Shown: piece by piece, positions 2,036 through 55,800 of the stretch
Layout: the number at the start of each line of letters is the position of its first letter
Position numbering within the stretch: the stretch's first letter is position 1
Source of the DNA: Firmicutes bacterium HGW-Firmicutes-4
GTDB lineage: Bacteria > Bacillota > Clostridia > Eubacteriales > Eubacteriaceae
NCBI GenBank assembly: GCA_002841405.1
Contig: PGZR01000001.1
Coordinates: 1-64,000 of the forward strand
DNA length: 64,000 nt
Direction: 5' to 3'
Notes under the pieces: generated by a model
Told to the model about the DNA's origin: nothing
The model's input: only the letters and a program-made list of their open reading frames with translations
The model's database searches: none
Translations under genes and position numbers: made by a program

Positions 2036-3376
2036 TTGGACAGTCGAAGAATTATACAAGTGGAGGAAAAGGTGCCATTGAAGATGCTCGTGCCATTAAG
2101 CTTGCAGCATATGTTTGCAATGTTTGGTGCATCGGTTTTAGTGCCTTTCCTCTTTGGAATCAACCCGGCCATCGTACTTTTTATGAATGGTGTGGGCACG
2201 TTATTATTTATGGTCATCACCAAGGGCAAGGCCCCGGCTTATTTGGGTTCCAGTTTTGCCTTTTTGGCGCCGGCCGGCATTGTTATTGCCACCTGGGGGT
2301 ATTCCTATGCGCTCGGCGGTTTTGTGGTCGTCGGTTTATGCGGCTGTATCCTGGCCGGGATTATTTATAAGTTTGGGATTGAGTGGATCAACGTGGTGCT
2401 CCCTCCGGCCGCGATGGGCCCGGTCGTCGCGCTGATTGGCCTGGAGTTGGCCGGCACAGCCGCCAGCACCGCCGGCATTATCAGCAGCACCAGTTATGTC
2501 CTCGACGAAGCTTCTGGCCTGTATGAACAGGTGGTCACCGCCATCATTCCGGAAAATGTCATTGTTTTTCTGGTAACTCTGGGCTTTGCGGTTTTTGGCT
2601 CGGTTATGTTTAAAAAATTTATGGCCGTTATTCCGATTCTGATCGCCATTGTGGCTGGTTACATCACCGCCTTGTTTACTGGCGTAGTTGGACCGGCTAC
2701 CTTTGAGGCCGTGGCTGAAGCGCCCTGGTTTTCATTGCCGAATTTCCAGTTCCCGCAATTTAATTTAGAAGCGATTATTATTATTTTGCCAGTTTTGCTG
2801 GTTATTGCTTCTGAGCATATTGGTCACCAGATTGTCACCAGTAAAGTCGTCGGACGGGATCTTTTAAAAGATCCGGGTTTACACCGCTCTTTGTTTGCCG
2901 ATAATTTTTCCACCATGTTATCGGGTTTAATCGGGTCCGTACCAACGACCACCTATGGTGAGAATATTGGCGTAATGGCGGTAACCAAGGTCTACTCAGT
3001 TCAGGTTATTGCCGGAGCAGCAATTATTTCCATTGTTTGCTCGTTTGTGGGTAAATTATCGATGCTGATCTCCACCATTCCCGGTCCGGTCATCGGCGGG
3101 ATTTCCTTCCTTTTATATGGGATGATCGGTGCTGCCGGTATCCGTATTCTGGTTGATGCCCAGGTTGATTATGGCAAATCCCGTAATCTGGCCCTAACCT
3201 CAGTGGTCTTTGTGGTCGGCTTGTCCGGCATCGCCGTGACCTTTGGCAGTATCCAACTCAAAGGCATGGTTCTGGCTGCCGTGGTCGGGATGATTTTAAG
3301 CCTGATCTTCTTTATCCTCGATAAACTGAACCTGACCAATGACCGCGAAGAAGAACACCTTTACGACCAACCTTAA
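2036..3376 (+). CDS. uraA: Uracil permease (NCS2 family)
   Basis: A proton-coupled nucleobase importer of the inner membrane. The 446-residue product has the length and roughly 14 hydrophobic segments of the NCS2 family. It keeps both substrate-binding signatures of UraA: a glutamate in ASEHIGHQI and a second in TTTYGENIGVM. The N-terminal QHMFAMFGASVLVP segment is the usual family start. An open frame extends back to ATG 1961, but the promoter and a GGAGG at 2024-2028, 7 bases before TTG 2036, show that TTG is the likely start. Xanthine or another pyrimidine is a possible substrate; the sequence around the second glutamate favours uracil. No PyrR-type attenuator was seen. Confidence 0.88.
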   Translation: MDSRRIIQVEEKVPLKMLVPLSLQHMFAMFGASVLVPFLFGINPAIVLFMNGVGTLLFMVITKGKAPAYLGSSFAFLAPAGIVIATWGYSYALGGFVVVGLCGCILAGIIYKFGIEWINVVLPPAAMGPVVALIGLELAGTAASTAGIISSTSYVLDEASGLYEQVVTAIIPENVIVFLVTLGFAVFGSVMFKKFMAVIPILIAIVAGYITALFTGVVGPATFEAVAEAPWFSLPNFQFPQFNLEAIIIILPVLLVIASEHIGHQIVTSKVVGRDLLKDPGLHRSLFADNFSTMLSGLIGSVPTTTYGENIGVMAVTKVYSVQVIAGAAIISIVCSFVGKLSMLISTIPGPVIGGISFLLYGMIGAAGIRILVDAQVDYGKSRNLALTSVVFVVGLSGIAVTFGSIQLKGMVLAAVVGMILSLIFFILDKLNLTNDREEEHLYDQP

Positions 3377-3394
3377 GTTAGTTGCTAATTGACC

Positions 3395-3535
3395 GTACCG
3401 ACCAATTGTTAATCTGTTGTTCGCCGCGCCAACTACAAGCAAGCTTGTGATTGGCGCGTTGCCTTCGCGCAGAATCGGACAGGCGATGCCTTGTCCGCTC
3501 CGATGGGTACAACATGATGTAACAATTGTCGGTAC
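3395..3535. other. Cloverleaf-like structured inverted-repeat element
   Basis: A long closing stem pairs 3395-3411 with 3520-3535 (one bulged base) and continues inward with 3412-3420 against 3509-3518. Inside it are two hairpins: 3425-3458 (arms cgcgccaa / ttggcgcg, with a further small stem in its loop) and 3476-3497 (arms cggacaggc / gccttgtccg, one bulge). It lies directly after the permease stop and before a normal terminator. It has no open reading frame of note. It could be a structured RNA, a MITE-like repeat, or part of the permease 3' UTR. I do not recognise a known family. Confidence 0.6.
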
Positions 3536-3564
3536 TACGTTAGTGCTTTATCTGCAACATCTAG

Positions 3565-3590
3565 ACTGATCATTATGATCAGTTTTTTTT
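3565..3590 (+). terminator. Intrinsic terminator after the uracil permease unit
   Basis: Perfect 8-bp stem actgatca / tgatcagt with a short loop, followed by eight T residues. Confidence 0.85.
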
Positions 3591-3604
3591 ATGGCGGCTG
3601 TCGG

Positions 3605-3689: not shown

Positions 3690-4139
3690 GTGAAAAATGA
3701 TATGAAAATTGCCGTCTTGATTGATGCAGATAATGTATCAGATAAGTATATCAAGTATATTTTTGATGAAATCTCCAACCTTGGCATGCCGACGTTTAAG
3801 CGCATCTACGGTGACTGGACCAAACCCCAGCTGGGGTCCTGGAAAACGGTCTTATTGAACTATTCCATTACCCCCATCCAGCAATACAGTTATACCACCG
3901 GAAAAAACGCCACCGATGCAGCGCTGATTATTGATGCCATGGATATTCTTTATTCCAATAACGTCGACGGATTCTGCATCGTCTCCAGTGACAGCGACTT
4001 CACCCGTCTGGCTACCCGACTCCCAAATATCTGGAAGTCCTGGCCAGTGATCCGGAAGCTGCTGCGGAGCAATCTGAAAGCGTCCAGAACGGAAAACAAG
4101 GTAATCAGAAAGAGGGCATGGCCAGCAAGAAAGAATTGA
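3690..4139 (+). CDS. NYN (PIN-like) domain protein, N-terminal part of a broken gene
   Basis: NYN domains are PIN-like ribonuclease folds, and family members of this LabA type often end in an OST-HTH/LOTUS RNA-binding domain. The opening IAVLIDADNVS, the GDWTKP segment and the acidic SSDSDFTRLATRL segment (metal-binding aspartates) are clear up to about residue 110. After that the frame is foreign: PNIWKSW replaces the expected turn and KTPKPF-type region. The correct C-terminal frame (reading PKYLEVLAS) resumes at once in another phase and runs into the OST-HTH fragment. About 25 codons are therefore missing and the phase is shifted. The start is GTG with a GAAGG ribosome binding site. Probably a pseudogene. 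Confidence 0.75.
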   Translation: MKNDMKIAVLIDADNVSDKYIKYIFDEISNLGMPTFKRIYGDWTKPQLGSWKTVLLNYSITPIQQYSYTTGKNATDAALIIDAMDILYSNNVDGFCIVSSDSDFTRLATRLPNIWKSWPVIRKLLRSNLKASRTENKVIRKRAWPARKN

Positions 4140-4375
4140 TTCAATCACTCAAAACCATTATCACGGAAAGCTCCGATGAAGACGGCTGGGCGAACCTGGG
4201 CGAGGTCGGCTCCCGGCTCAACAACCGCTATCCGGATTTTGATACCCGGAACTACGGTCACTCTAAACTGCGACCGCTGATTTTATCCCTCAATCAATTT
4301 GAAATTGAAGCACGCCGAACCAGCAAAAATCAGAATTCGCACTATGTTGTCCGCAACAAAGCAAAGCAAAGATAA
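4118..4375 (+). CDS. OST-HTH/LOTUS domain fragment, C-terminal part of the broken NYN gene
   Basis: The 85 residues match an OST-HTH (LOTUS) RNA-binding module: an N-terminal helix with KKELIQSLKTII, then EDGWANLGEVGSRLNNRYPDF and the pattern YGHSKLRPLI, and a final FEIEAR strand. The same reading frame is open further upstream and encodes the end of the NYN domain plus a Gln/Ala-rich linker. The ATG at 4118 is therefore only an internal methionine, with a GAGGG placed too close to it to be a good ribosome binding site. The fragment ends by overlapping the corA-like start by one base. Independent expression is doubtful. Confidence 0.7.
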   Translation: MASKKELIQSLKTIITESSDEDGWANLGEVGSRLNNRYPDFDTRNYGHSKLRPLILSLNQFEIEARRTSKNQNSHYVVRNKAKQR

Positions 4376-5690: not shown

Positions 5691-6548
5691 ATGAAAATCG
5701 GATTTATTGGCGCCGGCAAAGTCGGCACCGCCCTGGGCATTTTTTTCAAACATAATAGTCTTTCCCTAACAGGTTACCTAAGCCGCAGCGAAACCTCGTC
5801 CCAATACGCGGCAAAAGCAACTGACTCCGCTGTTTTCTTCGACCTTCCCAGCCTTGTTACCGCAAGTGAAGTGATTTTTGTCACCACCGGGGATGATCAA
5901 ATTTCTGAGGTTATCAACCAACTCCTCCAAACCGCCTGCTTAACCGGGCATCATACGCTTGTCCATACCAGCGGCGCCCTGTCCACCGATCTTTTTGATC
6001 CGCTGTTAGCATCAGGGTGCGGTTTATGTTCACTTCACCCAATCATGAGTTTTTCTGATCCCTTCACTGCGTCTCAAAATTTAATGCAAACGGTTTTTAC
6101 CCTGGAAGGCAATGAAAAAGGTCGGGCTACTGCGCAAAAAATCCTTGCGATCACCGGTAATCCCTATTCCGTCATTGATAAAGACGATAAGGTTCTCTAC
6201 CATACCGCTGCCTGCATCCTTTCCAACTATCTGGTGACCCTGATAGATTCGGGTTTTGAACTGCTAAAGACCACCGGAATTGCCGCCGATGAAATCACCA
6301 GAGCCTTTATGCCGCTGATCACCGCCACCCTGGGCAACATCGAAAGATCCGGAACCGTTAACGCTCTCACCGGCCCGCTGGTCCGGGGGGATGAAAACAC
6401 TATCGGCAAACACATCGAAGCGATAAAAAAACAAACCCCGGAATTTCTGTCGCTCTACCAGACCATGGGCTTAGCCACCATTGAGATGATCAAAGACAAA
6501 CGAATTGATGCCGAAACCTATGAACATTTAGAAAACAAACTAAAATAA
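5691..6548 (+). CDS. Rossmann-like/DUF2520 dehydrogenase, candidate ketopantoate reductase
   Basis: The N-terminal Rossmann fold begins GFIGAGKVGTAL (NADP glycine loop) and the C-terminal half is the helical DUF2520 domain (LSNYLVTLIDSGFELL, then LTGPLVRGDENTIGKHIEA). The family is annotated as an oxidoreductase of unknown substrate. Its place directly in front of panB-panC-panD, with no panE in the cluster, makes a ketopantoate reductase role likely. I recall that PanG-type ketopantoate reductases, unrelated to PanE by close sequence, have been described in Firmicutes and Francisella. An AGGTGA ribosome binding site lies 6 bases before ATG 5691; a GTG at 5682 overlaps that site and is unlikely. 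panB follows 21 bases after the stop. Confidence 0.75.
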   Translation: MKIGFIGAGKVGTALGIFFKHNSLSLTGYLSRSETSSQYAAKATDSAVFFDLPSLVTASEVIFVTTGDDQISEVINQLLQTACLTGHHTLVHTSGALSTDLFDPLLASGCGLCSLHPIMSFSDPFTASQNLMQTVFTLEGNEKGRATAQKILAITGNPYSVIDKDDKVLYHTAACILSNYLVTLIDSGFELLKTTGIAADEITRAFMPLITATLGNIERSGTVNALTGPLVRGDENTIGKHIEAIKKQTPEFLSLYQTMGLATIEMIKDKRIDAETYEHLENKLK

Positions 6549-6569
6549 TAAAAATAAAGGAAGAAACTA

Positions 6570-7406
6570 ATGAAAAACAAATTTACTGTCAGCTCTTTTT
6601 TACAAGCCAAAGCAAACAAAGAAAAAATCACCATGCTAACGGCCTACGATTATTCAATGGCCAAAATCGTCAACGATGCCGGCATCGATACGATTCTGGT
6701 GGGCGATTCTCTGGGTATGGTAGTCCAGGGTTATGAATCCACTCTGGAAGTGACCATGGACGACATGGTATACCACTGCCGCGCCGTTGCCCGGGGTGCC
6801 GACAACGCCCTGGTCGTCGGCGACATGCCATTTTTATCCTATCACATTTCGGTAGAAGACGCCGTTCGCAATGCCGGCCGGTTGATTCAGGAAGGCAAAG
6901 CCCACGCTGTCAAGCTTGAAGGCGGCGTGGACCAGGTTGCCAATGTCAAAGCCATTGTCAAGGCGCAAATCCCGGTCATGGGCCATATCGGTCTGACGCC
7001 CCAATCCGTTAACATGTTCGGCGGATTTAAGGTTCAGGGTAAAGATACTGCTCAGGCCCAGAAAGTCATTGATGATGCCCTGGCGCTGGAAGCGGCGGGC
7101 GTCTTTGCTATTGTCCTGGAAGGGATTCCTGAAAAACTGGCAACCCTGATTACTGAAAAAATCTCCATACCCACCATCGGTATCGGTGCCGGTCGCTACT
7201 GCGACGGTCAGGTTCTGGTCATTCATGACCTGCTGGGCATGTATTCAGGTCAATCGCCCAAGTTCTCCAAGCGTTATGCGGCTCTGAATGAAACCATTAA
7301 GGATTCTGTCACCGCCTATGTCACCGAGGTGAAGACTGCGAAGTTCCCGGAAGAAAAACATACCTTCACCATTGATGATGCAGTTATCGCCGCCTTGCAA
7401 CAATAA
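6570..7406 (+). CDS. panB: 3-Methyl-2-oxobutanoate hydroxymethyltransferase
   Basis: Transfers the hydroxymethyl group of methylene-THF to 2-ketoisovalerate, giving ketopantoate, the first step of pantothenate synthesis. The 278 residues are full length. Seen are the opening [12 protein letters not shown], Mg-binding VGDSLGMV near 45-52, [20 protein letters not shown], and the catalytic Glu in FAIVLEGIP followed by [16 protein letters not shown]. The C-terminus [10 protein letters not shown] is typical. A good AAAGGAAG ribosome binding site lies upstream. It is followed by panC 4 bases after the stop. Confidence 0.96.
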
Positions 7407-46858: not shown

Positions 46859-49800
46859 TTACTTATTTCTACCTCGATGGGGAAGACCAGGGTGAGGACG
46901 ACTTGGACCATCACTGTCAGACAGCGGAATCGTCGAAAAATGAGCTTCCGCATCGATCGATTCGGTGGCATCAAAGGCCCAGCTGGCAGCGGTGCTGACG
47001 CTCGTTCCGCCCACAAACCAACCGTCAAATTGATACCCGGTATTGGCAACGGCCATTAACGTGACGGCCTCTTCCTGGCCGAATGATCCGCCTCCAGAAA
47101 CCGTTCCTCCCTGTTCAGGTACCGCTTTTGCGGTGATGCTGTATTTACCCTGGACAAAATGGGCCGTATAGGTTTTACTGCCATTAACCGTCGTTTTAAA
47201 GACCGGCGAGATCGCCCCTTTTATCCGGCCGTTTTCATCGGACCAGTAGCCAAAGATATAACCAAGCTCCGTGGGGATGGCAGTTAAGGTTGCCGTATCC
47301 CCGTAAGCATAGGTTTGCTGCCCGGTGATATAACCGGCTCCGTGGGGATCCACATTGGCGCTGATATCATGGGTTGTTTTTTCAAACACTGCCGTTAAGG
47401 TCGTATCTTCATAAATTCTGAATGGGTAACTTCTGGCATTTGAAAGTTTTAAACCGTTCTGGTTGACCCAATGGAGGAATTTGTAACCCGGGTAGGCCAC
47501 TGCATAAGCCATTACATATTGACCCGATTCGACGGTCTTTTCGCCGGCAATCAGATCACCAACCAGGAGCGCTTTACCTTGTAACACCGATTGTTCAGTG
47601 ACCGAAAGTTTTACCGTTGCATTTGATTTGAAATGAGCGATCAGAACGGTGTCTCCGGTAACGGTAAAGGTGTAGACCGCCTCCGGACTGACGACATTCC
47701 CTTTAACATCGGTCCAGTTCGTAAATTCATAGCCATAACCGGGGATGGCTTCTACTGTAGTCTGATTCCCAGCGGTGGCATCCAGATGGTAGCCTCTGGC
47801 GATATTGCCACGAAGGTACTCTTCGGCCAGCGGAATAATCAGGGCCCCTTTAGTATTTTTAAAGGTGGCGGAAATTGTGATGGGCGCCAGATTAATCCAG
47901 TCTTCATTTAAGGTGAAGGTATAATCCCCGTCTGATGAAATACAAGACTGCGTTCCCTGGGCATCGGTTATCATCCAACCGGCAAAGCTATAGCCGTCTT
48001 TGGCAGTAGCCGATAAATTCACGGTGTCTCCAAAATTGTAATAGCCGTTCCCGGCGGCGTTACCACCGTCGCCAACAGTCAACTCGACCTGATATACATT
48101 GGGTGTAAAGACCGCAGTTAGGTTAGTGTCTTTTGTCAGCGTAATGGCATCACTACTTAAGGTTGAGACCTGTTCTCCGGTGTCAGCATCCATCCAGGCA
48201 GTAAAGGAATAGCCTGGCAAGGCAACCGCTGCAATACTGGCCTGATCGGCCTCAGAGGATGGATTGTAGCCGCCCTCACCAGATAAGGTTCCACCGGTAA
48301 CCGGGTCAGCCATTAAAGTCAGGACAAATTCTTCGTTACTGAAATCGGCTTCCAGATTGCGGTCGGCGGTTGCTGTGAAGCTATAGTTGGGTGTCTGACT
48401 CACGCATTGGCCGTTTTCAAACCACCCCACAAATTGTGAACCGCTGGCGGGTGAAGCCTTAAGTGAAACCACGGCGCCTGCCGGATAGACCTCATCCGAA
48501 TCGCTATTAGCAACCGTCCCCAGGGCCGGATCATTAACGGTGGTGGTCATGGTATAGGTTTGGGGGGAGAAACTGGCAGTCAGGTCTGCCTCCGCCCGCA
48601 GGGTAAAGACATAAACAGCATCGGAACTCAACCGGTTTCCAGTGGCATCCATAAAGCCATTAAAAATATACCCTTCTTCCGGGGTGGCCGTTAAGGTGAC
48701 TGCCGTTCCATAATCATAGGTTCCCGTTCCGGATACCGTGCCGCCGCCATCTGGAGTGATACCAACATTCACGGCAACTTGTTCAAGCTTGAATTTGGCA
48801 AAAAGCACTCGCGAATAATAGGCCACAAAATCATATTCCGGGGTATCACAGACTTTTATTCCGGCAATATCATACCAGCCCACAAATTCATAGCCGGTAA
48901 ATGGCACGGCGTTGAGATAAAATTCATCCTTTGTTTCAGAAGTCTGGTAAACCTTATAAACCCGTCCGCCTTCAAGGGGGTCCGGAAAAGCCAGTGCCAT
49001 GATTCCTTTGTGAGAAAAAGCGGCGACCAGGGTCCGGTCTTTTGCAGCGGTAAAGGTATAGGCATCCTTCTTCTCGACTTCTTTGCCGTTTTCATACCAG
49101 CCTTCAAACTCATAGCCTTTCTTTTCTTCGGCTTTTAAGGTGACCGACTCGCCATTTGTAATGACCAGTCCAGTTTCTGGTATATCTTTATCGTCTGAAG
49201 TCACTGTACCGCCCTCCACATAATCGCATTGGACTTGAATGGTGACCGCCGGTTCGGCTTCAAAATTGGCAGTTAATGTTGTATTTTCAGTGACATCAAA
49301 AGTATAATCGGCAGTTTTGGTGACCACGGCACTGTTTTCATCGGTCCAGTTGGCAAAGGAGTAGCCCTTTTCTATAACTGCACTCACGGTTACCGAATCC
49401 GACAGCTTATAGGGACTGGTTCCGGTTTGGGTAACCGTTCCCTGGGTTTCGTCAGCTGATTTTGCCGTCACGGTAAAGGCATTTTCCTGATAACTGGCAA
49501 TATAGCTGACATCTGCGGTCAAGTCAAAGGTATAGGTTTCTGAAGTAGAAGCCGGCACGTCATCCGTCAATGCGCTAAACCAGCCTTTAAAGATATAATT
49601 ATCTGTCTCCGCATCATCCAGGGTTGCGGTGATGGTATGTTCACCCATTTGGGATAATCCATTTCCGGTCAAGGTCACTAGCGACTCCATTGTGGTCGGA
49701 TCAGCCGTCAGGGCTACATTGGCACCTAATTCAAATTGGGCAGTGAGACTATGATCGGCTGCAACCGCCGTCAGGGTATAGCTTTCGTCCTCGGAAACCT

Positions 49801-52800
49801 GGGCTTCACCTTCATACCAGCCATCAAAAACATAGCCTTCATTTGGCGTTGCTGTGACAGTCGCATCATTGCCAACCGTGACCTGTTGAGACGGGCTAAC
49901 CGTTCCCCCCTCTTCCGGGGTGGCACTGGTGGTGATGGTATATTGTTCACTATAACTGGCAATATAACTGGTGTCTGCGGTTAGGTTAAAGGTGTAGCTT
50001 TCTTCGGTTGACACCGGTTCCAGGTCAGCCAGATTCACATACCAACCATTAAAGACATAATTTTCGGTTTCGGTATCGATTAAGGTGGCGGTAATCGTAT
50101 GTTCCCCGGTTTGGGATAATCCGTTTCCAGTAAAGGTCACCAGGGTATCCATCGCCACCGGATCTGCCGTCAGGGTGACATTGAATCCCGCTTCAAACTG
50201 AGCAGTGAGACTATGATCAGCGGCCACTGCTTCCAGGGTATAGGTTTCTTCGGTTGATACCTGGACGCCATTTTCATACCAGCCGTCAAAGAGATAACCC
50301 TCATTGGCGGTGGCTGTCACGGTGGCCGTTCCGCCGGCGATCACCTGCTCGGTTGGGGTAACCGTCCCGCCTTCTGCTGGCGTGGCACTGGTGGTAATGG
50401 TGTACTGTTCACTATAACTGGCAATGTAACTGGTGTCTGCGGTTATGTTGAAGGTATAGGTTTCATCGGCTGACACTGGTGCCGGGTCAGTCAGATTGAC
50501 ATACCAGCCATTAAAGACATAATTTTCAGCTTCGGCACCCAATAGGGCAGCGGTGATGGTATGTTCTCCGGCTTTGGATAATCCATTGCCGGTAAAAGTC
50601 ACCAGCGTATCCATCGCCACCGGATCAGCAATCAGAGTTACCTCAAATCCTGCTTCAAATTGGGCGGTAAGATTGTGATCAGCCGCCACCGCTTCAAGAG
50701 TATAGGATTCTTCTGTAGAAACCTGAACCCCATTTTCATACCAGCCGTTAAAGAGATAACCTTCATTAGGAGTGGCCGTCACGATGGCCGTTTTACCACT
50801 GACAACTTTTTCTGTGGGGGTAATTGTTCCCCCAATTTCCGGGGTGGCACTGGTGGTAATCGTGAATTCCTGTTTGAAGTGAGCGGTTAAAACGGAACCT
50901 TCGTCGGCTTCATCAACCAGAAATGAAATACTCTTTGCCTCCGGATCATCAATTACCACGGCACCCTCACTGCTCCAGTTTTCAAAAACCCAGCCCGGGT
51001 TGGCGGTGGCTTTTAAGACCGCCATTTCACCAACGCGATATGTTTCGCCGCCAATTGCCGTTCCTGCGTCTACCGGCGAAGCGGCGGCGGTAATCAGGAT
51101 ATCCGTTTTATCATCGGGATTATCGGGATCTGGGTCCGGATCCGGCGGATTATGATCAACGACGCCACCAGCCACTTCACCCAGATCTTCTAATGCTACC
51201 TCTGCTAAATCCAAAGCACCGTCAGCCAACAGCTCATCACCGCCAAAATAGATGGCCGCAGCGATACCGGCGGCAATGGCGGCAGCCGTAGCAGCGGCGG
51301 CGGCGATTTTCACGATTCTTTGGGCTTCACTGCCACTACTTTCTTTATAAACCGCCACAACGGTTGTATTTCCGGTCATATAGAGAGTCAGTGTGCCTGC
51401 CTTGGTATTGGAGGTCACACTTTTCAAGGTATTGCCGTTGCTGTCTTCAAAATGGGAGAAAGCATACCCGGCCTGATTGCCCTGGGAGATGGTCACCAGC
51501 GTTCCATAGGGATAATATCCCGATGGGGCTGCCTGGCCGCCGCCTTTGGGACTGACATTCAAGGTCAGGTAACAGGCATTCGGCGAATAATTGGCCTGAA
51601 TCGGGGGTGCATCGATTCCAGGTTGTCCCGCGACCGTGTAGTTAAAGCTGGTTTTCTTACTCAGGGTGGTACTGCCCTGAGTCCAATTTTCAAAACTGTA
51701 ATTAGCATCCACGGTGCTGCTGATATTAACGGATTCCCCAACATTTCGATAACCGCTGCCGGATACCTCACCGCCGTTTAAATCTACGCCGGGAATGGTC
51801 TGATCAGCAACGTAGGCATTTTCCACCAAAATTCCAATGTCCTTTAAATGCAGCCTGGCCACCAGCGGGGTGCTATCCAGTAGCTGATAGTTGAAGGACG
51901 GCGCACTGCTGACTAAAATAGGGGTTTCCTCATCGGTATACCAACCATCAAAAACCAGATTGGGATCCACCGTTCCGTAGTTAAGGGTAATGGAATCCTT
52001 GAAATTCCCGGTAACGCCTGAATTAGGAAACTGGGTTACCTGGGGAACCACCCCGGGCAGCAGGTTTCGTTGATAATTATCCGTCCACTCGGCTGAAACC
52101 GGAACCGTTACCGTGTATTCCTGGACAAAGTCATACTGAATTGCCAGCGACTCGGTGATGGCGTCGATGGTATAAACTGCATCATAGGAGATCAGGGTGC
52201 CCGTGCTATCCAGATAATCTTTAAATATCACATTCGGCATGGTTTGATTGGCGGTGGCGGTTAAGACCACCTTATCGCCGTACTCTGGGATGGTTCCAGC
52301 TGGTGCCAATACCCCATTTTCATAGACAGCCATGGCCACGCTGCCATAAACAGACCGGCCTGGATCCACTGGGGTCAGAGTTACCGGGCATTGTAATACA
52401 TCAAAGTTGGCCGTGTAAATGACATCATTTGCCACATTCACCACCAATTCCGAAGTGGTTATAACTGTATCATCCAGATTATTGGTCCAGTTGACAAATT
52501 CAAAACCGGTATTAGGGATGGCCGTGAGGGTTGCCTGGGTCCGATAGGCATAGGTTCCGCCTCCGTTGACGGTGCCCATCGTCGTTGGGTTTGCCGCAGC
52601 GCCAATGCTATTCTGGCTGGTGTGGAATTGGGCGGTCAGGGTATCATTTCCCGTCACTGTAACATCAAAGGTACTGTCCATCGAAACGATGTCTCCCAGA
52701 GCATTGACCCAGCCATCAAAGACATAGTTAGCATCTGGGGTGGCTACGGCTGTGATCACATCCCCATAAAAAGGACCATCGGTCGGGTAATTGGTCCAGG

Positions 52801-55800
52801 CGGCGGTTCCACCGCCGCTTGCTGCGGTATTAATACCCACGGTATAGGCAATCGGAGCAAAATTTGCCTGAAGTGACATATTGGCATCCGGTTGCAAAAT
52901 CCAGTTGGCATCGGTGCTTAAAACAGCTCCGGGCTGAGGATCTGCCAGGGCATCGGTCCAACTCACAAAAGTGTATCCCATATCCGGGGTTGCCGTTACG
53001 GTTAGCGATTGCCCATAAAGTACTGAAGCCTGAGACTGGCTCACGGTTCCGCCGGGGGTTTGGCCGGCTGCTACAACCGTAAATGTTTTCGGGGTATAGT
53101 GGGCCACATAGGTTACCACCAGATCCGGTCCGATGGTAACATCAAATGTATCATCCGGATAGACAATTCCAGCGGCATCGGTCCAATTGGTAAAATCGTA
53201 ATTGGGCGAGGTTTCAGCCGAAATGGTTTTGGTCGTATTTTTAGGGCCAATCAGAATATCTGTCTTTTTCGCCGCCGCGGGATCGCCTTGGGTGATAATC
53301 GCGCCGTAATCCGTAACAAAGACAGCCACCAGATTGGTCGCTTGTGTTACGGTATAATTAAAATCTGCGGTTTTACTGATCAGCTTGCCATCCTCAAACC
53401 AGCCAAGAAACAGAATTTCTGTATTGGTGGTATTGGCCGCCATATTTAGAACCGTTCCATAGCTGTAGATGTCCTTTGCGGGACTCACTGATACCTGATC
53501 TTCAATGGATTTCTGAGCGACCATTGAAATATTCACCAGATAAGTTTCCGGTGCAAAAACCGCCGTGTACTGCCCCTGGCTGGCTTCACTGGCGGTAAAG
53601 GTATATTGGGGATTGGTACTCACGGCTAAATCCGAATCCCCCTGGGTCCACCGAATAAAATTATAATTGGCATTGGGAATGGCCGTTAAGGTCACACTTG
53701 CGCCATCCTCAAAAGTACCGCCACCAGCGACGGTTCCGCCTGTTGCTGGAGAAGGCGTAACCGTAATGGGATACTGCACCGCCGAAAAATTAGCCGTTAA
53801 CGCCTGGTTGCCAGTAATCGTGATGCTGGCATCAGGCTTGTTGGATACGGTGTTCCCTGATCCATCCACCCAACCGCTAAAAACATAGCCGTCCGCCGGG
53901 GAGGCCTGAATATTTACCACTTGACCGTAAACCAGATTGGTTCCCCCGCTACTGACGGTTCCGCCATTTGTCGGATTGGCTGTCAGACTCAGGGTATACC
54001 CTTGCTGGGAAAAATTGGCAATCAGGCGAGTATTCTTGCTGGGCTCAAAAACGTAGGTCTGATCTGTACTGACGCTTTGACCGGTATCCCCATCGGTCCA
54101 GCCGGTAAAACTGTAGCCATTGGCTGGTGTAGCCACAACGGTGGCGGTTTTGCCATAGGTAATGGAAGTTGCCGAGGTTACCTGAGCGGTTCCTCCCGGA
54201 GTTGGGGTTGCCGCCACCGAGATGGTGAATGTTTTGGGGGTTACATTGGCAATAAAAGTCTGCAACCCTTTTTGCACCTGCACCGTGAGATTAGGATCAG
54301 TACTCACAACCTTACCGGCACTGTTGGTCCAGTTAATGAAATCATAGGTATCCGAGGAACCGTTAAAACTCAGGTTGGTTCCAATCGGTTGAACTTCAAT
54401 ATCCACGTTTCTTGATGAAAACGGGTTTCCCAGAACAATCACCGAACCCCAATTGGTACCAAAAACAGCATTAATCAATACGGGTTCAGTGACCGTATAA
54501 GAAAAGGCCGGCGATTTAGATAATAAGATGCCGTTTGCATACCAGCCTGAGAACGTTACCCCGGAATCGGTACTGCCGGCACTCAAAGCTAACACCGTTC
54601 CACTGGCATAGTTACCGCTTACCGGGGTTACGGTAATGGTCTGAAGAGCGGCCGGTGAGGCAATGGTTGAAATTTTCACCGGAATCTGAGTTGCCTGAAA
54701 CACCGCTGCATAGATCCCGGCGGTAGCATCGCTGGCAGTAAATGCGTAACTGGCCTTCTTACTGACAACCGCCTGGGATTCGCTATTAATCCAATTAACA
54801 AAGGTATAACCGGCGGTCGGGGTCGCAGTCAGGGTCACTGTCGCTCCGCTGACATAAGTGCCATCGCCACTCACCGTGCCGCCACTGGTCGGAGTTCCTG
54901 AAACCTGAATCACCACGGTATCCGGAATAAAGCTGGCCGTATAGGTTATGTTATCCGTCACCGGGATATTCAGAGTTGCACTGGTTCCCACCACCGCATT
55001 GTTTTGATCGGTCCATTGGCTGAACTTATAGCCGGAATCCGGGGTGGCCGTGAGCGTTACCTTTGATCCATTGGCGACATTCCCCCCACCGGTTACAGTT
55101 CCGTTGCCATCACTGACCACCGCAACACTACACATTGTCGGCTCAAAAATCATTTGATAGGTACCGGATTCCGTTACCGGCACATTTACCGGCTGGGTAT
55201 ATGGTGTGTAGGAGCTGTAATTATTGGGGTCAGTAAAATAATAACCATTACATTCATAGCCGGGGTTAGGCATGGCATATAAATAAATACTATCCAGCAG
55301 GCTATATGAACCACTTTCATTAAACACAGTTCCTCTGGTTGGGTCGGAGCTTTCCACAACAATATTATAAGCCCCTTCGAAAGAAAAGGAGATAATTACG
55401 TCATCATGTAAAATAAAATCGGCGGTTGGTTGATTATCAACTTCCTGACTGGTGCCATCAGCAAAGGCTGCTGTAATACTAGTAACCTTAAAACCATTAA
55501 CGGGTGTCACATTAATATTTAATGTGGATCCGGTGGGATAAGCGCCATTCCCGGTTTGTCCATTTGCTCCGCTGAAGGTTACATTACCTAAAGTGGGGTT
55601 GAGGTCTTCCACCTGAACCTCTACGGTGCTGACCGGCGGTGGTGTAACCGCATAAAAGGTCACTGAAATGACGGTATCATCAGTTAAGTTAAACGTAGTT
55701 GGTGTCAGCGGGGTTTCATAGATCAGTCCCCCCATTGATGCCGAAATCAGATAAACCGCATAGCCGGGGTTAGCTACGGCATCAACTTTTAGAACAGATC

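Follow-up and report, generated by a model that had tools for sequence, protein, structure and literature searches.

The inverted repeat at 3395-3535 of the window (the whole stretch of 64,000 nucleotides that was analysed) is probably a copy of a non-autonomous palindromic MITE of Acetobacterium, mobilised at stem-loops by an IS1182-type transposase. It belongs to a genus-specific MITE family whose target mode duplicates the target hairpin and is apparently directed by structure. The copy in the window is unremarkable and has partly decayed; what makes the case interesting is the family together with the IS1182 clade.

The segment 3395-3535 starts with GTACCGAC and ends with GTCGGTAC; in its fold, about 25 pairs form a closing stem that encloses two hairpins. 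An earlier note on this DNA had described here a cloverleaf-like inverted repeat with a closing stem of more than 20 pairs around two hairpins, and recomputing the fold bore out both the structure and its position. The fold energy of the region 3380-3600 (221 nt) was -89.1 kcal/mol compared to -58.5 +/- 4.5 kcal/mol in shuffled sequences (z = -6.74) and none of the 200 shuffles was equally stable; a chance origin of the fold is thus ruled out, as that note had judged from its regularity. The element is preceded by the stop codon (3374-3376) of a uracil/xanthine permease gene and followed by an intrinsic terminator, from which the repeat had rightly been said to be distinct, the terminator having a separate stem (3563-3585) followed by a T run. 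Judged from the best-preserved family members, the full element is slightly wider than the inverted repeat and covers about 3375-3560; its parts are listed in Table 1.

Table 1. Coordinates of the window copy, its parts and its neighbours
Feature	Coordinates	Strand	Basis and remarks
Uracil/xanthine permease gene	2036..3376	+	PF00860, E 3e-90; ORF end 3376, element directly 3'; start codon uncertain, the listed ORF starts at 1961
Left outer end, degraded; its first two bases are also the final two of the stop codon	3375..3394	+	Family boundary, -20 to -1
Closing stem, left arm	3395..3420	+	Fold; family consensus
First inner hairpin, arms 1 and 2 of the three-arm form fused by the 47-nt deletion	3425..3458	+	Comparison with L010
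Deletion junction within the first inner hairpin	near 3426	+	Comparison with L010
Second inner hairpin, GGACAGGC type, arm common to the 98-nt form	3476..3497	+	Fold, alignments
Closing stem, right arm	3510..3535	+	Fold
Right outer end, closest to type B (5 of 22 mismatches, hand count)	3536..3560	+	Family boundary +25, end types
Intrinsic terminator with the element at its 5' foot, presumed target	3563..3590	+	Terminator scan

Reading of the window sequence revealed no recognisable GAGGTTGTC end at the left outer position. As the outer ends of the window copy are poor and the terminator hairpin is not duplicated, this copy was placed by its membership of the family; it probably goes back to an older insertion downstream of the permease stop codon and upstream of the terminator of that gene. 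At the orthologous site of a sister species (L010, flanks about 95% identical) the 188-nt form with three hairpins is present; the window copy derives from that form by a 47-nt deletion, the lost segment being bordered on both sides by CGCCA. In another species (L070), a 98-nt form occupies the same site (about 1150-1247) and runs in the opposite direction, the result of either a second insertion or an inversion by way of the long arms. In the species of locus L132 the site is empty, and the terminator is present there as well. Two further regions of the window were noted in passing. An NYN domain (3690-4139) and an OST-HTH/LOTUS domain (4118-4375) occupy two overlapping frames at 3690-4375, as if a single NYN-OST-HTH gene had been split by a frameshift or a small deletion. 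In the region 47000-55100, diverged direct repeats are numerous, spaced for instance by 222, 462 and 915 nt; the region is probably, as a guess, a minus-strand gene for a long, repetitive surface protein.

Looking for more copies, a check proposed by the earlier note, gave 77 matches in the window's own genome (40 of the 84 candidates were scored), which were merged by hand to 40 copies; a single-copy RNA gene was rejected on this ground. Allowing at most 3 mismatches, 58 left and 56 right arms were counted in this draft genome, 54 and 53 in the complete genome G011, 52 and 44 in G009, 25 and 14 in G010, and none of either in G014. The family was found in 18 of the 19 Acetobacterium genomes, namely the window's own and 17 of the 18 other congeners. 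It was absent from 42 genomes of other genera in a first query; in a second one, 18 of the 67 genomes of the order were positive, all of them Acetobacterium, with none of the 48 outside the genus. One complete congener, G014, carries no MITE copy, though a broken copy of the insertion sequence described below (L195, L227) is present. Plasmid, phage and viral collections gave no match (0 viral contigs), and a plasmid or phage origin was rejected accordingly. No Rfam family reached its gathering score, the best being a plant-type microRNA model with 36.5 bits for a cut-off of 245. The repeat is a genus-wide MITE-like family, restricted to Acetobacterium among the genomes searched. Two of the possibilities raised earlier, a MITE-like element and a repeat family, the latter extending to the genus, were thereby upheld; a third, a structured RNA, was neither established nor excluded.

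The fetched loci yielded 178 distinct full copies, non-coding, with a core of 67-211 nt. These copies are not independent, orthologues being counted, and the rise from 162 to 178 came largely from loci picked by a type-A right end, which inflates type A. Measured between the terminal GTAC motifs, the size classes were 67 nt (7 copies), 98-100 nt (102), 115-119 nt (9), 130-132 nt (9), 141 nt (1, the window copy), 169 nt (1), 181-190 nt (42) and 200-211 nt (7). They correspond to a closing stem with zero to three inner hairpins, the 188-nt form being a three-arm cloverleaf. The size class differs in 16 of the 24 orthologous pairs of the same orientation (10 sites by hand count), with flanks that align. 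Deletion between short repeats explains some of these module changes and exchange with other copies may be behind others. Conservation of the core stays high in copies with degraded outer ends, the window copy being one of these, indicating that selection or homogenisation acts on the core.

Some irregular copies were also seen. An extra AGGGTCTGACCCCTAGGTC piece is present near the right arm of some copies (L085, L150, L159, L142, L073, L104, L105), and a few have a matching GGGGTCAGACCC piece in place of the left arm, which looks like another small palindrome nested within the stem. Loci L182, L188 and L192 are short scars with the left outer end joined to GTCGGTACTGGG beside a terminator, the element having apparently been deleted between TTGTCG repeats. 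An autonomous copy with inner arms was not found in the complete genome G011, where no arm pair was more than about 211 nt apart in lists scanned by eye, and the outer ends at 30 examined loci all belonged to the MITE or its scars. No other carrier of duplicated hairpins, 0.3-6 kb apart, was detected in the loci fetched by then. In locus L152, the sequences AAAGCACAAG...CTTGTGCTTT (5911-7059) form an exact 32-nt palindrome pair with a distance of 1148 nt; the sequence next to them does not resemble the MITE family.

In copies with a type-A right end, conservation spans from 20 nt before to 25 nt after the core and then stops; the outer ends of the family lie at -20 and +25 around the GTAC...GTAC core. 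The closing stem constitutes the terminal inverted repeats (96.2% of the cells pair in 65 distinct 98-nt copies) and the outermost 20-25 nt are imperfectly inverted. Just outside the type-A limits stand two near-identical copies of one terminator hairpin. With duplication called at a direct-repeat score of at least 24, the hairpin was duplicated in 28 of 156 copies before type-A selection compared to 0.86 expected from mispaired flanks. After addition of the type-A-chosen loci, the figure was 34 of 172 copies compared to 0.57 expected (6 of the 178 copies were dropped for short flanks). Duplication was found in 26 of 44 copies with a type-A right end, 4 of 13 with type B and 4 of 115 with an unrecognised end; it was found in 24 of 36 copies when both ends were good and in 1 of 53 when both were poor. 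The duplicated unit is about 18-39 nt long and its length is not fixed. Empty orthologous sites carry one hairpin (L166 compared to L283, L285, L286, L287 and L288; L172 to L278; L148 to L049; L084 to L076), indicating that the duplicated unit is the whole stem-loop. Several older insertions compared to empty sites showed no clear duplication. The copies sit at gene ends: according to a simple longest-ORF script, 100 of the 178 lie between tandem genes, 47 between convergent genes, 8 between divergent genes and 2 within an ORF, and 21 have no neighbouring gene in the DNA that was fetched, compared to 225 tandem, 62 convergent and 71 divergent gaps among 358 element-free ones.

In the available parts of two reports, IS1272 of the IS1182 family targets stem-loops or terminators and the hairpin is lost (PMC5678879, PMC4923244); some IS1182 members target palindromes (Siguier et al., as cited in the available parts of PMC5678879, PMC4923244, PMC3281130 and PMC2267715). 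Because of the stem-loop targeting reported for IS1272, the genus was searched for the IS1182-type domain PF05598. The domain is present in 14 of the 19 Acetobacterium genomes, and no IS1182-type match was found in the window's own genome (86% complete). One group of insertion sequences, consisting of L225 (= L197), L226 (= L198) and L227 (= L195), has ends CAGACTGTCAAAAAAG and CAGACTGTCAAAGAACC. The end CAGACTGTCAAAAAAG (L197/L225) equals the reverse-complemented right end of the MITE over its first 16 bases, and the left end of the MITE matches the IS of the genus only partly. The transposase of the L225 group matches NF033551 (IS1182 family) with 362.6 bits for a cut-off of 270 and contains DUF772 and DDE_Tnp_1_6. 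Duplicated hairpins flank L225 and L226. Five other genomes, including the window's own, have an unoccupied L225 site with a single hairpin.

Relatives of this transposase (E <= 1e-60) occur in 15 of 291 genomes of Clostridia. The 28 loci examined represent 24 distinct IS copies by hand count; both ends were located in 12 of them, seven by the end pattern and five by comparing copies in G238, and no pair of ends was found in the other 12. The whole hairpin is duplicated in 9 of the 12 (L225, L226, L255, L256, L263, L270, L274, L275, L276). Two different hairpins flank the remaining three (L227, L261, L259), which are possibly recombination products. A second IS1182-type group with ends GGGACCTGTGAAAAAG was observed at L204, L205, L210 and L220; its flanks resemble the two halves of a REP-like palindrome (GACACAAGGGGACGGTTC...), possibly a loop duplication.

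For the hairpin duplication and the IS end shared by the MITE, we infer the following steps. An IS1182-type transposase would mobilise the MITE in trans and recognise an extruded stem-loop by its shape; on both strands, the 3' ends of the element would be joined to the hairpin at its 5' feet, and subsequent repair would leave a copy of the hairpin on either side of the element. DDE transposases join the 3' ends of the element to the target, and the available part of the same report drew both pathways, 5'-foot and 3'-foot joining, and assigned IS1272 to 3'-foot joining, with the stem-loop lost (PMC5678879). Joining at the 5' feet of an extruded cruciform followed by gap repair would duplicate the stem-loop, and joining at the 3' feet would lose it. 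The present data match what would be predicted by the 5'-foot pathway, the hypothetical pathway b in the available part of PMC5678879. We lean towards a wider rule, in which the IS1182 clade of Clostridia and its MITEs would read the target by DNA shape alone and join both 5' feet of a terminator cruciform, so that the duplication would be one hairpin of any sequence or length. As terminators are common stem-loops, the element would build up just after genes without breaking them, and each insertion would leave a terminator on both sides, which would explain dozens of copies without harm to genes. Several points stand against a MITE moved by IS1182: the window copy has poor outer ends and lacks a duplicated hairpin, right ends are unrecognised in 115 of 172 copies (duplication in only 4 of these), two different hairpins flank 3 of the 12 IS copies, the left end of the MITE agrees with the IS of the genus only in part, no IS1182-type match was found in the window's own genome, and G014 has a broken IS and no MITE.

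The covariation check suggested by the earlier note gave changes on both sides in 12 of 42 pairs of the 98-nt alignment and in 74 cells, shuffles giving 5.5 and 21.4, respectively; the outcome named there as contrary, a single copy without conserved pairing, did not occur. In a cloverleaf alignment of 35 sequences, compensation was seen in 14 of 66 predicted pairs. Such compensation argues for structure at one level or another; RNA, single-stranded DNA or a cruciform, and palindrome correction would each be compatible with the covariation. A rival reading sees the cloverleaf core above all as a structured RNA with a function of its own (a processed small RNA, an attenuator or a 3'-UTR stabiliser), spread by mobility and kept by RNA-level selection. 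Besides the compensatory changes in both alignments, this is favoured by the conservation of the core where outer ends are degraded and by the position of tandem copies at a median of 22 nt after the upstream stop, which makes it likely that the element is in the transcript. However, at fixed sites the inner modules vary freely (16 of 24 pairs), copies are oriented both with the gene (59) and against it (41), and G-U cells show no clear excess over A-C cells (22 vs 14, or 13 vs 10 distinct events). Furthermore, one complete congener (G014) is devoid of any copy, and palindrome correction or copy-to-copy exchange could also yield compensation. Combined, these observations make a primary role as RNA unlikely.

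Target replacement as for IS1272 would have the element take the place of a hairpin, the flanking hairpins being independent terminators of convergent genes. The IS family is the same, IS1272 removes hairpins according to the available parts of PMC5678879 and PMC4923244, and three IS copies have two different hairpins; nevertheless, the flanking hairpins are near-identical, loop included, in 9 of the 12 IS copies and in many MITE copies, and empty sites carry one hairpin of that sequence. Replacement is already strongly disfavoured and we consider it highly improbable. We give hardly any credence to a REP/BIME-type element moved by a Y1 (RAYT) transposase via single-stranded DNA, since whole hairpins are duplicated and the outer end is common to a DDE-type IS1182 element, even if the palindromic nature, the extragenic location at gene ends and the many copies would suit it. 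Single-strand transposition is not known to duplicate targets. Integron attC sites and group IIC introns came into consideration too, and neither was adopted.

If the preferred reading of an IS1182-mobilised MITE is true, secondary structure can direct transposition and set the target duplication. The family would then provide genomic evidence for a pathway that the available part of PMC5678879 only sketched as a possibility, and, save for this hypothetical pathway b, a partial collection of the literature contained no description of the family or of hairpin-length target duplication. It would also provide a rule for target choice that is testable and independent of sequence, as well as a mobile element sparing coding regions, and a conspicuous repeat class of an acetogen genus would be explained. 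It would further serve as a warning that strong covariation in a repeat family need not imply a functional RNA.

Bacterial MITEs are short, non-coding, bounded by terminal inverted repeats, present in many copies and have an end in common with an IS. The Acetobacterium family shares these features, with one end shared with an IS; it differs from usual MITEs in that the duplication is one target hairpin without fixed length and the interior is built as a modular cloverleaf. BOX elements of Streptococcus pneumoniae have constant ends and variable inner modules and are intergenic with many copies. The likeness is limited to the modular plan, the modules of the Acetobacterium family being hairpin arms inside one closing stem. 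REP/BIME elements are extragenic palindromes at gene ends; compared to them, the Acetobacterium element is larger, duplicates a target hairpin and has a DDE-type candidate mobiliser. The closest likeness in mode is to IS1272/TnSha1 of staphylococci, which, in the available parts of the reports, have an IS1182-family transposase and target stem-loops, often terminators, of unrelated sequence just after genes (PMC5678879, PMC4923244). According to the same parts, IS1272 deletes the stem-loop without target duplication (PMC5678879, PMC4923244), whereas the elements of Acetobacterium and other Clostridia duplicate the whole stem-loop. Unlike IS1272/TnSha1, Acetobacterium has a non-coding derivative in dozens of copies.
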